DNA from: Betaproteobacteria bacterium | Lineage (GTDB): Bacteria > Pseudomonadota > Gammaproteobacteria > Burkholderiales > Rhodocyclaceae | Length of the DNA: 64,000 bases | NCBI GenBank assembly: GCA_012026885.1 | Contig: VEPL01000030.1 | Coordinates: 1-64,000 of the forward strand | Reading direction: 5' to 3' | Part shown: piece after piece, positions 54,014-60,792 of the stretch | How positions within the stretch are numbered: the stretch's first letter is position 1 | How the letters are laid out: each line of letters starts with the position of its first letter | Program-made: the position numbers and the translations under genes | Notes under the pieces: generated by a model | Database searches by the model: none | Told to the model about the DNA's origin: nothing | Seen by the model: only the letters and a program-made list of their open reading frames with translations

Positions 54014-55702
54014 ATGCCCGAACACCAACTCCGCTACGGCCAGTACTTGGGCGCCATCCGCCGCCACCACCGGCAGGTGCCCTATGGCGACATGATCGCC
54101 GCCGAGCGCACCCTGCCGGTACGCCGCGGGCGGCTGCGCGCCATCGACATCCACCGCCTCGTCACGCCGTACGTCTCGGTCCGTTTCCTCGAGCAGTTGC
54201 AGGCGGTCGTGCCACTCGCCCTCATGCTGGTCGCCTTCCAGGCGCTGGCCCTGCGCACAACGCTCGACGAAGCGGAAATGATCGCCCTCGGGATACTCGC
54301 GGTCATGACCGGACTCATGCTCTTCATCGAGGGGGTCGGGCGCGGTCTCATGCCCTTCGCCGAGAACATCGGCTTCACCCTCCCCGGGCGCGCGGGCATG
54401 GCGCTCATCCTGGCCTTCGGCGCCCTGCTCGGCACCCTGGCCACCTTTGCCGAGCCGGCCATCGCCACACTGCAGGTCGCCGGCAATGCCGTCTCGGCGG
54501 AGCGCGCCGGCCTGCTCAAGTCCCTCCTCGGGCCGTGGTCCGGCCTGCTCGTGCTGGCTGTCGCCGCCGGAGTAGGGCTGGCAGTCGCCCTCGGCCTCCT
54601 GCGCTTCATGTTCGACTGGCGGCTGAAATCCCTGGTGCTGGTGATCGTCCCACCTTGCCTCGCACTCTCCGCCTATGCCGCCAGCCGCCCAGACCTGGCG
54701 CCGGTCATCGGCCTCGCCTGGGACTGCGGCGGCATCACCACGGGACCGGTAACCGTACCGCTCGTCCTCGCCATCGGCATCGGGCTGGCCGCATCGACCG
54801 GACGCGGGGAAAACCCGCTGGCCGGTTTCGGCATCGTGACGCTCGCCTCGCTGCTGCCCGTCGCCCTCGTGCTGGCCACTGCCATGGCGGTGGCCGGCGA
54901 GGCTTTGCCGGACATCGCGGCGGCAGCGGACTCGCTCCCGTGGTATCGCCAGACGCCGGCAGCGGAAACCATCGCCGCATTGCGCGCCATCCTGCCGCTG
55001 GTGCTGTTGCTCTTCGTCGTCCAGCGAGTCGTCGTACGCCGGCCGGTCAAGGGCGGCAACGTCGTCGCCTACGGCATCACCGTGGCCGTGCTCGGCATGG
55101 TCCTCTTCAACCTCGGCCTCACCGCCGGGCTTGTCGAACTCGGCAATCAGGCGGGCAACAACGTTCCCTGGGCCTTCTCGCCCCACTACGAGACCGGCGC
55201 CCCGCCGCTCTACCCCCGCCTGCTCGGCCTCACGATGGTCATGATCTTCGCCTTCTGCATCGGCTACGGCGCCACCATCGCCGAACCGGCCCTCAACGCG
55301 ATGGGCGCGACCGTCGAAAACCTGACCGACGGCGCCTTCAAGAAGCGCCTGCTGATCCACGCCGTCGCCCTCGGCGTCGGATCCGGGGCCGTTGCCGGTG
55401 TCGTCCGCATCCTTTTCGACCTGCCGCTGGCCTGGTTGCTGGTCGGTGCGTACACCCTCGCCCTCGGGCTGACGCTCCTGTCGCGCGAAGAATTCGTCAA
55501 CCTTGCCTGGGACAGTGCCGGCGTCACCACCGGCCCGGTCACCGTACCCCTGCTGCTGGCACTCGGCATGGGCCTCGGGGAAGCGGTCGGTGCCGCCGAA
55601 GGCTTCGGCATCCTGGCGATGTGTTCGGCCGGCCCGATCATCAGCATGCTCGCCGCCGGCCTCTGGATCGACCGGCGCACCCGTCGCGGAGACAAACCAT
55701 GA
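54014..55702 (+). CDS. Fused DUF1538 (UmpAB-like) cation/proton antiporter
   Basis: A 562-residue polytopic membrane protein made of two similar halves. Each carries the DUF1538 hallmark: GLAWDCGGITTGPVTVPLVL around D237 and NLAWDSAGVTTGPVTVPLLL around D500, about 263 residues apart. In Halomonas the DUF1538 pair UmpA/UmpB is reported to form a two-component Na+(K+,Li+)/H+ antiporter; here both halves are in one chain. It is first in a run with two PII-like genes and overlaps the first by four bases (ATGA). The start at 54014 (MPEHQLRYG) is the first good ATG. The function is inferred. Confidence 0.85.
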   Translation: MPEHQLRYGQYLGAIRRHHRQVPYGDMIAAERTLPVRRGRLRAIDIHRLVTPYVSVRFLEQLQAVVPLALMLVAFQALALRTTLDEAEMIALGILAVMTGLMLFIEGVGRGLMPFAENIGFTLPGRAGMALILAFGALLGTLATFAEPAIATLQVAGNAVSAERAGLLKSLLGPWSGLLVLAVAAGVGLAVALGLLRFMFDWRLKSLVLVIVPPCLALSAYAASRPDLAPVIGLAWDCGGITTGPVTVPLVLAIGIGLAASTGRGENPLAGFGIVTLASLLPVALVLATAMAVAGEALPDIAAAADSLPWYRQTPAAETIAALRAILPLVLLLFVVQRVVVRRPVKGGNVVAYGITVAVLGMVLFNLGLTAGLVELGNQAGNNVPWAFSPHYETGAPPLYPRLLGLTMVMIFAFCIGYGATIAEPALNAMGATVENLTDGAFKKRLLIHAVALGVGSGAVAGVVRILFDLPLAWLLVGAYTLALGLTLLSREEFVNLAWDSAGVTTGPVTVPLLLALGMGLGEAVGAAEGFGILAMCSAGPIISMLAAGLWIDRRTRRGDKP

Positions 55703-56079
55703 GCCAGAACGAAATGATCATCCTGACCGACGTCGTGCTGATCACCGCCGTCGTCCAGCGCGGGCTCGCCGACATGGTCGTGCAGGTCGCGCAGGATGCC
55801 GGCGCCCAGGGGGCAACGATCTTCCACGCGCACGGCACCGGGGTGCGCCAGAAGCGCCTCGGACTGCTCGGCCTGACCATCAACGCCGAGAAGGAAGTGG
55901 TCTACATCGTCGTTCCCTCCGACCAGGCCGATGCCATCTTCGAGCGCATCTTCGTCGCCGCCAAGATCGACACGCCGGGCATGGGCATCCTGTGGATGAC
56001 GCCGCTCGAGAAGATGGCGACCTACGTGCCCTACGAGGTCGCCGCACGCTTCGGCCTGCACGTCGAGCGGCGCCGGTGA
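55699..56079 (+). CDS. PII-like signalling protein (copy 1), partner of DUF1538 antiporter
   Basis: A 126-residue protein with the PII ferredoxin-like repeat. It has MIILTDVVLITAVVQRGL at the start, a variable T-loop-like region (AGAQGATIFHAHGTGVRQ) and AAKIDTPGMGILWMTPLEKM, which sits where the PII B-loop and fourth strand are expected. It is much diverged from GlnB/GlnK, so nitrogen sensing is not implied. It overlaps the DUF1538 gene by four bases and the next PII-like gene follows 7 bases later, so it probably binds a nucleotide and controls that transporter. Confidence 0.8.
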   Translation: MSQNEMIILTDVVLITAVVQRGLADMVVQVAQDAGAQGATIFHAHGTGVRQKRLGLLGLTINAEKEVVYIVVPSDQADAIFERIFVAAKIDTPGMGILWMTPLEKMATYVPYEVAARFGLHVERRR

Positions 56080-56086
56080 GGCGGCG

Positions 56087-56437
56087 ATGAGCGTCCTCGA
56101 GCACATCGGGCGTGGCCTCGAGAAAAAACTGATCACGGCGCTGCTGCGCGCCGGTGACGGCCAGCGCCTGCTTGCCGCGCTGGCCGAAGCGCCCGGCGTG
56201 CTCTCGGTTTCGCATCACCATGCGCGCGGCGTCGGCAACCGGCGGGTGCGCAAGGGCCAGCTTTTCTTCCGCGAGCACGATGTGCTCATCCTCCTAGCCG
56301 AGGCCGGACACGCCGATGCGCTGTTCGTGCGGATCTACGCCGAAGGCCGTATCGGCGAGCACGGTACCGGGATGGTATTCATGGAAAAGGTCTTGCGCGG
56401 ACACCCGATGATGCCGGTAGACTTGGCAGACTGGTAG
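56087..56437 (+). CDS. PII-like signalling protein (copy 2), partner of DUF1538 antiporter
   Basis: A 116-residue PII-like protein. After [18 protein letters not shown] it has a T-loop-like stretch ([19 protein letters not shown]) and ends with [17 protein letters not shown], which parallels the PII B-loop (R-G-x-G-x-G-K/M-F). Its sequence differs clearly from copy 1, so the two probably have different ligands or bind different halves of the antiporter. It follows copy 1 by 7 bases and precedes the DUF3124 gene by 17. Confidence 0.78.
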
Positions 56438-56454: not shown

Positions 56455-56967
56455 ATGATGAAGGCCCCTGCAGCCGGGTGCCGCGGCCTCGCCGCGTGCG
56501 CCCTGATTTTCGCCCTCTGCGGCCCGTTGACCGCAAGCGCCCAGGAGACCCGCCCCGCGAGCGCCGGGCAGACGCTCTACCTGCCCATCTACTCGCACAT
56601 GCTCTACGGCAACCTCGGCAAGCGCGGCGTGCCGTCGCATGCCCTGCTCTCGGCGCTGGTCAGCATCCGCAATACCGACCCGCGCCGCCCGTTGCGCGTC
56701 CTCTCGGCGCGCTACTACGATACCGGCGGCAAACTGCTCGGCGAGCGCCTGCCGCAGCCGGTGTCGATTCCCCCCCTGGGCACGCACGAAATCTTCGTCG
56801 ACCAGAACGATGCCTCGGGCGGTTCCGGCGCCAATTTCATCATCCGCTGGGATGCCGAGGCGCCGATCAGTCCGCCGCTGGTCGAATCGCTGCACGCCAA
56901 CATGGATGGCGGCAAGGCCGTGGTCTTCATGACCCAGTCCATCCCGGTCGCCGACCCGGCGCGCTGA
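56455..56967 (+). CDS. DUF3124 exported protein
   Basis: A 170-residue protein with a signal peptide (hydrophobic stretch about residues 12-26, ending TASAQE). The body [64 protein letters not shown] is characteristic of DUF3124, a family of unknown function. It lies between the PII-like pair and the K+ channel gene, whose ATG overlaps its stop (TGATG). Its place in the ion-transport run suggests a periplasmic accessory role, but this is only context. Confidence 0.85.
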
Positions 56968-58004
56968 TGGCCGGCATCGCGGCCCAGACGGGCTACATCT
57001 TCCGCCTGCTCCACTGGGCGCTCGGCGCGCTGGTCGCCGTGCACGTCATCGGCACCATCGGCTACCACATCCTGACCGAAGGCCAGTATTCGTGGTTCGA
57101 CTGCTTCTACATGACCTTCATCACCGTCGCCACGATCGGCTTCGGCGAAATCATCGACATGACCAGCAACCAGCCGGCACGGGTATTCACCGTGATCATC
57201 GGCATCCTCGGGGCCGGCAACCTATCGCTGCTGTTCTCGGTGGTCACCGTCGCCCTTCTCGAAACCGACCTCAACGGAACCTTGCGGAGAAAACGCATGG
57301 AAAAAGCCATCCGGAAACTCAAGGGACATTACATCCTCTGCGGCTTCGGCCGCGTCGGGCGCAACATCGCGCACGAACTGCACACCACCGGGCGCCATTT
57401 CGTCGCCATCGACGAAGACTTGCAGCGGCTCGAGGAATTCCGGGAAAAGCACCCCGGCCTCCTCTACCTGCACGGCGACGCCAGCGATGACGACGTGCTG
57501 CTCGCTGCCGACATCGAGGATGCCCGGGGGGTCTTCGCCATCACCGGCGACGATTCGCGCAACCTGATGATCGTCATCACCGCCAAGCAGCTGAAACCGA
57601 CCGTGCGCGTCGTCGCCCGCTGCCACGAGACGCGCAACATCGAGAAAATGCGCAAGGCCGGCGCCGATGCCATCGTCTCGCCCGATTTCACCGGCGGCAT
57701 GCGCATCGCCTCGGCGATGATCCGTCCGCACGTCGTGTCCTTCCTCGACGAGATGCTGAAATCGGAAAAGGACCTGCGCATCGAGGAAATTCCCATCCCG
57801 GCCGGCTTCATTCCCAAGCCGATCGGTTCGCTCCGGCTACGCAGCGCCCACTATGTCCTGCTCGCCGCGCGCGAGCGCAACGGCAACTGGCAGTTCAATC
57901 CGGACAAGGACTTCCTGCTCAAGCCCGGTTTCACGCTGATCGCGATGGCCAGTCCGGTCGGCCGCCAGGAGATCGAGCAGCACCTGCTCGACATGCTGGC
58001 CTGA
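56967..58004 (+). CDS. Two-span K+ channel with cytoplasmic RCK (TrkA-N/TrkA-C) domains
   Basis: A 345-residue MthK-like channel. TM1 is at about residues 16-36, the selectivity filter TIGFGE at 56-61 and TM2 at about 74-98. The RCK Rossmann domain starts at residue 120 with GFGRVG (126-131), and a TrkA-C domain ends the chain. Filter TIGFGE is a conservative variant of TVGYGD, so K+ selectivity is probable. An internal ATG at codon 111 with GGAG seven bases ahead could give free RCK subunits. It is coupled to the DUF3124 gene by TGATG. Confidence 0.9.
57286..57299 (+). promoter_or_regulatory. Internal ribosome-binding site and start inside the K+ channel gene
   Basis: GGAG (57286-57289) lies seven bases before an in-frame ATG (57297-57299), the codon for Met111 right at the start of the RCK domain ([12 protein letters not shown]). 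In the archaeal MthK channel an internal start at Met107 produces free RCK subunits needed for the gating ring. The same arrangement here would give a soluble 235-residue product. Confidence 0.55.
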
Positions 58005-58102
58005 GCGACCGGTAAGGGTTTTCCACAGCGGGAGCGCGGCCGGGGGCGGTGCTAGAATCGGGCGCCGTATCGAACCCGTCTTCACAGCCACAAGGAATCG
58101 AG

Positions 58103-59386
58103 ATGCTGACCGCCCTTGTCGTCGTCTTTGTCATCGCCTACGCCGCGATCGCGCTCGAGCACCCGCTCAAGATCAACAAATCGGCCTCCGCGCTGGTCGG
58201 TGCCGGCCTCTTGTGGACCATCTACGCGATGTCCACGGCCGACCACCATCTGGTCGGCCACCAGCTCGGCGAGTCGCTGATGAGCACGGCGCAGATCGCC
58301 TTCTTCCTGATGGGCGCGATGACCATCGTCGAAGTGGTCGATGCGCACAACGGCTTCGAGGTCATCACCCGGCGGATACGGACCCAGCAGCTGGCATCGC
58401 TGATGTGGCTGGTCGGCATCATCACGTTCTTCCTCAGCGCGATCCTCGACAATCTTACGACGACCATCGTCATGGTGTCGCTGATGCGCAAGATACTCGC
58501 CAAGCACGACGAACGCCTGTTCTTCGCCGGCATCATCGTCATTGCCGCCAACGCCGGCGGCGCCTGGACGCCGATCGGCGACGTGACGACGACCATGCTG
58601 TGGATCGGCGGCCAGATCACCTCGCTGAACATCATGACGTCGGTTTTCCTGCCCTCGGTGGTCTGCCTGCTGGTGCCGCTTGCCGTCACCGCCTACGTCC
58701 TGCGCGGACGCCCGGTTGTCTCGCCCGAGCACATCGAGATGGATCACGGCCTGAAAACCACCGAAGCGGAACGCAACACGATGTTCTTCCTCGGCCTTGG
58801 CGTGCTCATCGCCGTGCCGGCTTTCAAGACCATCACCCACCTGCCGCCCTTCCTCGGCATCCTGTTCGGGCTCGGCATCGTCTGGCTGGTCGGCGACATC
58901 ATCCATCGCCGCAAGGACGACGAGTACAAGCAGCGCCTGACGCTGGCGCACGCGCTGTCGAAGATCGACATGAGCTCGCTGGTCTTCTTCATCGGCATCC
59001 TGCTCGCCGTCGCCACGCTCGAGCACACCCATATCCTCGCCGACCTCGCCACCCGCCTCGACCACGACATCGGCCGCCTCGACCTGATCGTGCTGATCAT
59101 CGGCATGGTCAGCGCCATCGTCGACAACGTGCCGCTGGTCGCCGCAGCCATGGGCATGTACGACCAGACGACCTACCCGACCGACCACTTCCTCTGGGAA
59201 TTCCTCGCCTACTGCGCCGGTACCGGTGGCTCCATCCTGATCATCGGTTCGGCGGCCGGCGTCGCCGCGATGGGCCTCGAGAAGATCGACTTCTTCTGGT
59301 ACGTGCGAAAGATCAGTGGCCTCGCGCTGATCGGCTACCTGGCCGGTGCTGGCGCCTACGTGATCCAGTACCAGTTGATGCATTGA
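58103..59386 (+). CDS. nhaD: NhaD-family Na+/H+ antiporter
   Basis: A 427-residue polytopic transporter of the ion-transporter superfamily. NhaD landmarks are MGAMTIVEVVDAHNGFEVITRRI, FFLSAILDNLTTTIVMVSLM, NAGGAWTPIGDVTTTMLWIGG and SAIVDNVPLVAAAMGMY. It exports Na+ (or Li+) in exchange for protons. AAGGA lies seven bases before the ATG at 58103. It is separated by 98 bases from the K+ channel gene, with a possible TAGAAT -10 at 58053-58058, so it may have its own promoter. Confidence 0.94.
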   Translation: MLTALVVVFVIAYAAIALEHPLKINKSASALVGAGLLWTIYAMSTADHHLVGHQLGESLMSTAQIAFFLMGAMTIVEVVDAHNGFEVITRRIRTQQLASLMWLVGIITFFLSAILDNLTTTIVMVSLMRKILAKHDERLFFAGIIVIAANAGGAWTPIGDVTTTMLWIGGQITSLNIMTSVFLPSVVCLLVPLAVTAYVLRGRPVVSPEHIEMDHGLKTTEAERNTMFFLGLGVLIAVPAFKTITHLPPFLGILFGLGIVWLVGDIIHRRKDDEYKQRLTLAHALSKIDMSSLVFFIGILLAVATLEHTHILADLATRLDHDIGRLDLIVLIIGMVSAIVDNVPLVAAAMGMYDQTTYPTDHFLWEFLAYCAGTGGSILIIGSAAGVAAMGLEKIDFFWYVRKISGLALIGYLAGAGAYVIQYQLMH

Positions 59387-59436
59387 CGCGGGTAACAAGG
59401 CCCGCCGACGGACGGCACTGCCGAAAAGGAGCACCG

Positions 59437-60792
59437 ATGAATCTGCGCCGCCTGTTGCCCCTCGCGCTCGTCGCCGCCGCCTGGCCGGCGCTTGCAGCCG
59501 GATCGGACGTGATCGGCGAGAACCTGCTGTGGCTGGCGATCATCATCCTCGCCGCCCGCCTGTTCGCGCCGCTCGCACAGCGCGTCGGCTTCCCGGCGGT
59601 GCTCGGCGAACTTCTGCTCGGCGTCGTCCTCGGCAACCTCGGCCTGCTCGGCTTCCATTACTTCGACAGCATCGCCGCCGACCCGATCATCAAGTTCATG
59701 GCCGAGCTCGGGGTCATCATCCTGCTGCTGCAGATCGGCCTCGAGACCCGCCTCGCCGACCTCGCCCGGGTCGGCATCAAGGCCACTGCGGTCGGCGCCA
59801 TCGGCATCGCCATTCCCTTCGCACTCGGCGCCTTCGCGGTCGGCCCGCTGCTGCTGCCGGGCAAGGAATTCAACGCCTACCTGTTCCTCGGCGCGACGCT
59901 GGCCGCGACATCGGTCGGCATCACCGGCCGCGTCTTCCGCGACCTCGGCAAGCTCAAGATGCCCGAGGCGCAGATCGTCCTCGGCGCCGCGGTCATCGAC
60001 GACGTGCTCGGCCTAGTCATCCTTGCGGTCGTCTCCAGCCTGGTCCAGGCCGGCACGGTGAGCGTCGGGCAGGTGGCGATGATCATTATCGAGGCAGTCG
60101 CCTTCCTCGGCGGCTCGATCGCCATCGGCCGCGCCGTCGCGCCCGCCCTGCTGCGCTGGCTGTCGCGCCTCGACAGCAGCCAGACCATGCTCTTCTCGGT
60201 CGTCCTCGTCGCCGGCCTCTTCCTCGCCTGGCTGGCACATGCCATCGGGCTCGCCCCGATCATCGGCGCCTTCGCCGCCGGCCTCCTCTTCGAACCGGTC
60301 TTCCTGAAGCACTTCGAGACGCCCAAGGTCGTTCAGGAAATTCAGCCGCTGCTGCCTGCTGCGGTCGACTCGGAAAGAATGCAGAAAATCAGCGCCGTCC
60401 TCGAGCGCCATACCCATCACCAGCACGAACACATGATCGAGCCGATCGGCTATTTCTTCGTGCCGGTGTTCTTCGTGCTGACCGGCATGCAGGTGGACCT
60501 GTCGACGCTGTCCGACCCGAAGACGGTCGCCATCGCCGTCGGCATCACCGCCGCCGCCGTGGTCGGCAAGATCGCTGCCGGCTTCGCGGCCGGCAAGGGC
60601 ATGAACCCCTGGCTGGTCGGCTGGGGCATGGTGCCGCGCGGCGAGGTCGGCCTGATCTTCGCGATGGTCGGCAAACAGCTAGGCGTGATGAGCGAATCGA
60701 TGTTCTCGGTCATCGTCATCATGGTCATCCTGACCACGCTGATCACGCCGCCCATCCTGACCGTGCTGCTGCGCCGCCAGAAAGACGCCTGA
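59437..60792 (+). CDS. CPA2-family cation/proton antiporter
   Basis: A 451-residue monovalent cation:proton antiporter-2 protein with a cleavable-looking N-terminal segment (MNLRRLLPLALVAAAWPALAAG) and about 12-13 further hydrophobic helices. Key segments are VGFPAVLGELLLGVVLGNLGL, GVIILLLQIGLETRL, LGAAVIDDVLGLVIL (the ion-site Asp pair), LAPIIGAFAAGLLFEPVF and VPRGEVGLIFAMVGKQLG. There is no C-terminal RCK domain, unlike KefB/KefC. AAAAGGAG precedes the ATG. A His-rich loop (HTHHQHEH) lies before the last helices. It follows nhaD by 50 bases. Confidence 0.92.
   Translation: MNLRRLLPLALVAAAWPALAAGSDVIGENLLWLAIIILAARLFAPLAQRVGFPAVLGELLLGVVLGNLGLLGFHYFDSIAADPIIKFMAELGVIILLLQIGLETRLADLARVGIKATAVGAIGIAIPFALGAFAVGPLLLPGKEFNAYLFLGATLAATSVGITGRVFRDLGKLKMPEAQIVLGAAVIDDVLGLVILAVVSSLVQAGTVSVGQVAMIIIEAVAFLGGSIAIGRAVAPALLRWLSRLDSSQTMLFSVVLVAGLFLAWLAHAIGLAPIIGAFAAGLLFEPVFLKHFETPKVVQEIQPLLPAAVDSERMQKISAVLERHTHHQHEHMIEPIGYFFVPVFFVLTGMQVDLSTLSDPKTVAIAVGITAAAVVGKIAAGFAAGKGMNPWLVGWGMVPRGEVGLIFAMVGKQLGVMSESMFSVIVIMVILTTLITPPILTVLLRRQKDA

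Follow-up and report, generated by a model that had tools for sequence, protein, structure and literature searches.

A fused UmpAB-like DUF1538 protein encoded with two dissimilar PII-like proteins: a possible cation/proton antiporter module under hetero-PII control

The 64,000-nucleotide stretch of contig VEPL01000030.1 analysed here (the window) carries on its forward strand, between positions 54014 and 56437, three tightly packed genes for a DUF1538 transporter and two PII-like proteins, gene2 and gene3. Why should one transporter be accompanied by two different PII-like proteins? The first-pass annotation had considered two answers, one regulator for each half of the transporter or a heteromeric PII. 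The ATG of gene2 at 55699 overlaps the transporter stop codon as ATGA, and a gap of 7 bases separates the end of gene2 (56079) from the start of gene3 (56087). Downstream of these genes, on the same strand (56455-60792), are encoded a DUF3124 protein, a TrkA_N-domain ion channel, an NhaD-type antiporter and a protein which by eye resembles CPA2/KefB-type antiporters; these genes are kept in part among close relatives.

The transporter gene (54014..55702, + strand) encodes a single chain of 562 residues in which Pfam finds PF07556 twice (E 6e-101 for the whole protein), and the position of its start codon is kept in an alignment with relatives. The motif WDxxGxTTGPVTVP occurs once in each half, as WDCGGITTGPVTVP (W236-P249; 54719..54760, +) and as WDSAGVTTGPVTVP (W499-P512; 55508..55549, +), and the aspartates D237 of the first and D500 of the second motif are invariant in all 76 proteins compared. 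The fused chain, the motifs around the two aspartates and the ATGA overlap followed by the 7-base gap had all been described correctly in the first-pass annotation, and its designation of the protein as UmpAB-like is supported by the comparison that follows.

UmpAB of Halomonas zhaodongensis is reported to exchange Na+, Li+ or K+ for H+ (PMC5484666). The window protein shares with it the two homologous DUF1538 halves, and the WD..TTGP..VP positions are kept over the clades examined. In contrast to UmpAB, which is encoded by split genes, it is fused, belongs to a deep clade other than that of the split systems examined and carries an extra N-terminal extension. It also stays far below the cut-offs of the curated NCBIfam equivalogs for UmpA (NF041627; 199.9 bits, cut-off 490) and UmpB (NF041628; 179.6 bits, cut-off 500), the best stretch for the UmpA profile being the first half and that for the UmpB profile the second half. 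An AlphaFold2 model of the transporter (mean pLDDT 76.5, pTM 0.78) found no match among the PDB folds. By analogy with UmpAB we infer that the window protein would catalyse antiport. A search of the window's genome found no DUF1538 locus besides the one in the window.

Gene2 (55699..56079, +; 126 aa) passes the gathering score of the Pfam P-II family PF00543 (43.2 bits, cut-off 25; E 5.1e-11). Gene3 (56087..56437, +; 116 aa) remains below it with 18 bits. Its family profile, however, matches solved PII chains in the PDB (best E 1.6e-7), and its AlphaFold2 model (mean pLDDT 78.7) resembles PII/GlnK structures (best Foldseek E 1.5e-6), all 50 matches listed being of the PII type. Gene3 is thus predicted to have the PII fold, as the first-pass annotation had expected of these neighbours. 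The two proteins are only 28% identical, which bears out the earlier description of a dissimilar pair. They also differ in conservation: in 17 relatives the identity is 64-92% for gene2 (46% in a further relative, L024) and 30-74% for gene3.

Alignment with the GlnB and GlnK proteins of the same genome places the T-loop region of gene2 at 55834..55893 (+; GTGVRQKRLGLLGLTINAEK); it has a hydrophobic tip, RLGLLGL, and lacks Tyr51. That of gene3 (56228..56278, +) lies immediately 3' of a conserved HHAR stretch. Counted on the alignment rows, the region is shorter than in GlnB/GlnK by 4 residues in gene2 and by about 7 in gene3. The following counts leave out L160 as well as the later domains of L157 and L158. 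The position of Tyr51, the uridylylation site of GlnB/GlnK, is gapped in 29/31 gene2-like domains, 22/26 gene3-like domains and 47/47 other domains linked to DUF1538, and no domain has a Tyr there. Lys90 and Arg101, residues of the ATP site, are similarly depleted: the former is present in 0/104 linked PII domains (one gapped), the latter in 1/31 gene2-like, 0/47 other linked and at least 1/26 gene3-like domains. Lys58 is retained in 27/31 gene2-like domains. The linked PII proteins therefore differ from canonical GlnB/GlnK both in the T-loop with Tyr51 and in the pair Lys90 and Arg101, and judged from these residues and the shorter T-loop it is doubtful that they bind ATP and 2-oxoglutarate in the canonical manner. 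Since a search for a diadenylate cyclase in the window's genome found none, c-di-AMP is an unlikely ligand as well.

PII proteins are described as acting on the transporters Amt, Nrt, Urt and SbtA, and the PII-controlled transporters treated in the available text of that review carry nitrogen compounds or bicarbonate (PMC10710835). In the SbtA-SbtB system, as outlined in the accessible portions of PMC8352866 and PMC10710835, a PII-like protein is likewise encoded with a Na+-coupled transporter, into which its T-loop is inserted; the transporter is of another family, though, and there is one PII. Similarly, GlnK plugs AmtB (PMC10710835, in part), but this PII is canonical with Tyr51, Lys90 and Arg101, which the window-linked family lacks. 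PII-NG is a PII-type protein clustered with the proton-driven cation exporter CzcABC (partial text of PMC7726332), which is however an RND efflux system and not a DUF1538 protein. A PII gene beside an antiporter is therefore not new as such. An operon with two dissimilar PII genes, which are both needed for switch-off, is known from NifI1/NifI2 of methanogens (PMC9765008 and PMC8395244, as far as their text was accessible), where the target is nitrogenase and not a transporter. Four pairings of PII with a transporter occur in the window's genome: besides the window set, a GlnK beside an Amt-like gene (L004; Amt assigned by eye), a PII with an ACR_tran (RND) gene (L005) and a PII with an Sbt_1 gene (L006). 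All three are separate from the window locus and differ from it in sequence; there, the partner is DUF1538 and not SbtA or CzcABC. Partner genes and residues thus rule out canonical GlnB/GlnK, SbtB and PII-NG as the identity of the window proteins. The first-pass annotation had known of no PII-gated DUF1538 antiporter, and among the literature matches listed (titles and abstracts, with preprints and most subscription papers outside the search) we found no PII-linked DUF1538 protein either; the only match combining DUF1538 with the letters 'pii' was, by its title, an antiporter paper on another family.

How widely is the arrangement kept? A contig search yielded 23 relative loci, mostly from Azonexus, Dechloromonas and other Betaproteobacteria. 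Five end within the transporter. Both PII genes are present in 17 of the 18 that extend beyond it, and the remaining locus, L024 from a Desulfobacteraceae MAG, has a single PII. Within the window's own family, DUF1538 is found in 18/101 genomes and is absent from the single genome listed as the same genus, so that the module is patchy.

A broader census used 77 out of 93 loci, which together hold 79 DUF1538 systems. Left out were the two-PII loci L009 and L011, which are closely related to L008, L021 and L027-L030, which end inside the transporter, and L090, L092, L094, L100, L101, L104, L164, L165 and L176 as repeats or overlaps. A PII-like gene was counted as adjacent when it lay no more than 500 bp upstream or 1300 bp downstream of DUF1538. 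By this measure one adjoins the transporter in 74/79 systems, a proportion that is not a population frequency, as the loci were hand-picked (some per family, with window-type and PII-only genomes chosen deliberately). The five exceptions are L121, L122, L136, L137 and L097; the contig of L136 ends 1.2 kb past DUF1538, and in L097 a PII gene lies about 0.6 kb upstream, together with a CBS gene. Chance adjacency is excluded by this census, and the neighbourhood, for which the first-pass annotation had suggested a genome survey, is conserved far beyond this genome. A further 16 loci outside the 79 gave a PII match in 14; L207 stops at the contig edge, and the DUF1538 of L209 is partial and has no PII with it. 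Remnants of DUF1538 were also seen, one match (G1123) being in pieces with an internal TAG and another (G1143) partial (L208, L209). L112 and L172 each hold a pair of DUF1538 systems from different clades, only a few kb apart in the same genome.

Of 398 genomes of the phylum, 129 match the profile of the linked PII family (A3) and 126 have DUF1538; 122 genomes contain both, 4 only DUF1538 and 7 only the PII, two of these seven matches being weak (1.4e-10 and 1.6e-10). Fisher's test of this co-occurrence gives p 6e-88, which overstates independence and is not a true probability, the sampled genomes being related and phylogenetically uneven. Linked-type PII copies apart from DUF1538 also exist (L177, L178, L180, L182-L184, L186, L187 and L190), so the linked PII family is not used only with DUF1538. 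Three of them (L177, L178, L180) are in genomes with no DUF1538 match, and a malic-enzyme-like ORF (by eye) lies near the unlinked PII in L182 and L183.

These copies bear on the possibility that the PII-like proteins have no gating role and serve a common response to ion or energy stress, as cytosolic sensors or enzymes transcribed together with the antiporter. Such a role would suit family f59 (L182, L183, L190), in which a linked-type PII stands beside a CBS gene away from DUF1538, and also the DUF3124, TrkA_N channel and NhaD genes downstream in the window. Adjacency and co-occurrence across three DUF1538 clades and two phyla are nevertheless tighter than shared regulation requires, and we consider an absence of gating quite improbable.

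The next point concerns the number of regulators. In a tree of the DUF1538 proteins of 78 systems the window-type clade (29 rows, support 100/100), a group of split umpA/umpB systems (33 rows, 95/81) and a short-fused group (15 rows, 95/90) are resolved, with L160 as a long branch outside the split and short-fused groups. L025, whose transporter is cut, is absent from the tree and was placed in the window class by 76% identity. Exactly two PII genes are present in 26/30 window-type systems and a three-PII protein in 2/30, while one PII is seen in 2/30: L024, where the ORF after the single PII resembles an RlpA-type lipoprotein (by eye), and L159, where the contig ends after one PII. Outside the window clade, 38/49 systems have a single adjacent PII; in the first system of L112, the counted second PII belongs to the neighbouring system. 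The transporter shows two DUF1538 halves, split or fused, in 78/79 systems, the exception being the cut L025. One regulator per half fits badly with two-half systems that mostly have one PII, and we reject it. Instead, the other reading of the first-pass annotation, a heteromeric PII, is favoured by the natural PII chains described below. Of the earlier interpretation as a whole, the fused transporter, the dissimilar PII pair and the conserved neighbourhood stand, and the assignment of one regulator to each half is poorly supported.

Many systems outside the window clade have a second kind of gene, coding for CBS domains (PF00571 in the three proteins scanned). It occurs in 31/49 of them, namely in 14/15 short-fused and 17/34 split systems, and in 0/30 window-type systems. 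The nearest sampled relatives of the characterised UmpA, L192 and L193 (423 and 408 bits, cut-off 490), have the gene order umpA-umpB-PII-CBS. In the window clade the second PII occupies the place that the CBS protein has in many sister systems. CBS domains let many transporters respond to nucleotides, according to the accessible text of PMC10710835. Within the window clade, 25 rows with two PII genes are grouped (97/91), the tri-PII systems L157 and L158 are sister to them (99/88 for the whole), and L024 and L159 fall outside; from this topology the second PII was probably gained inside the clade. In the PII tree the gene3-like proteins form one side of a branch (90/74) and fall on the side that holds the other four PII proteins of the window's genome (91/72), which are themselves grouped (87/82; L006 is a long branch), with gene2-like, split and short-fused PII proteins opposite. 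Gene3 may accordingly not be a copy of gene2.

In Desulfobacterota, the phylum of L024, PII domains beside DUF1538 are found joined: two in one ORF in L160, L196, L197, L201 and L202, and three in L157, L158, L194 and L195. In L200 two PII proteins are encoded by separate ORFs, and in L204-L206 a PII is combined with CBS. The joined domains were also recovered with a profile from which L157, L158 and L160 had been left out. In the tri-PII proteins the middle domain scores 41-57 bits and the outer ones are weak (14-27 bits); Pfam finds one weak PII domain in L157 and none in L158. The DUF1538 proteins next to tri-PII proteins (L157, L158, L194, L195) have an insertion in the second half, their matches spanning 834-843 bp compared with about 630-690 in most others.

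Where one lineage fuses proteins that another keeps apart, these proteins are frequently partners. The di- and tri-PII chains beside DUF1538 suggest that PII domains act together, and by this rule gene2 and gene3 may well assemble with each other. The same chains count against a rather unlikely alternative, a broader form of one regulator per half, in which two separate PII homotrimers act independently on one antiporter, each with its own ligand; the prevalence of a single PII among two-half systems outside the clade argues against it as well. On its side are the two distinct genes with their different conservation, the loci L095, L096, L106 and L107, where a PII lies on either side of a short-fused DUF1538, and the PII tree, which leaves room for gene3 having arisen separately.

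The N-terminal extension of the transporter (RYGQYLGAIRR...PYGD...; 54014..54163, +) is confined to two-PII systems. Its pattern (RYG...SYN), which was composed after the sequences had been seen, is present in 21/23 two-PII transporters with a complete N-terminus, in 0/4 other proteins of the window clade and in 0/47 split and short-fused loci; L129 and L130 have two PII genes yet lack the RYG part. From this distribution we propose the extension as a candidate docking site for the PII assembly. That the extension accompanies the second PII would be left unexplained if gene2 were the gate and gene3 an anti-gate that binds gene2 and frees it from the transporter, itself making no contact with the membrane protein. 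The lower conservation of gene3, its shorter T-loop, its position as second in the order and the fact that L024 and the single-PII systems manage with one PII would agree with an anti-gate, which we nevertheless hold to be improbable.

Our preferred reading, to which we give about an even chance, is that the three genes are a single module, in which a heteromer of gene2 and gene3 gates an UmpAB-like cation/proton antiporter. The fused protein would exchange cations (Na+, K+ or Li+) for protons. Gene2 and gene3 would form a mixed PII assembly, built as a heterotrimer or as a complex of two rings, which would dock on the cytosolic face of the transporter with the aid of the N-terminal extension. 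Transport would be locked or released by gene2 through its T-loop, which is short and hydrophobic, and gene3 would supply a second signal in the position of the CBS-domain protein of many sister systems. Binding of the PII proteins to each other and to the transporter, and the gating itself, are inferred; the gating step is proposed on the model of GlnK-AmtB and SbtB-SbtA, as these are presented in the available parts of PMC10710835 and PMC8352866. Counting against this explanation are the low equivalog scores, the five systems without an adjacent PII, the unlinked PII copies, L024 with its one PII despite belonging to the clade, the PII tree with its doubt about gene3 as a copy of gene2, the uneven genome sample, the transporter model that matched no PDB fold, the weak outer domains of the tri-PII proteins, L129 and L130 without RYG, and the report of UmpAB as a heterodimer (PMC5484666, in part).

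For the family as a whole we put forward a more tentative view, somewhat short of an even chance: DUF1538 antiporters would be a large family under a PII subfamily of their own with a remodelled ligand site, and in the window clade an asymmetric hetero-PII, present as di- or tri-PII chains in some Desulfobacterota, would integrate two signals and replace the PII-plus-CBS arrangement of the sister clades. The words PII and P-II are absent from the main text of the UmpAB paper (PMC5484666), and the activity of UmpAB may hence have been measured in the absence of its regulators. The gene neighbourhoods point to a further regulator of DUF1538 systems, either a CBS protein or another PII, and the natural di- and tri-PII chains offer a handle on hetero-PII assembly. 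A distinct PII subfamily would thus be tied to a family of monovalent cation/proton antiporters present in 126 of the 398 sampled genomes, and the keeping of such sensors beside DUF1538 in many bacteria suggests a so far undescribed on/off switching of ion exchange.
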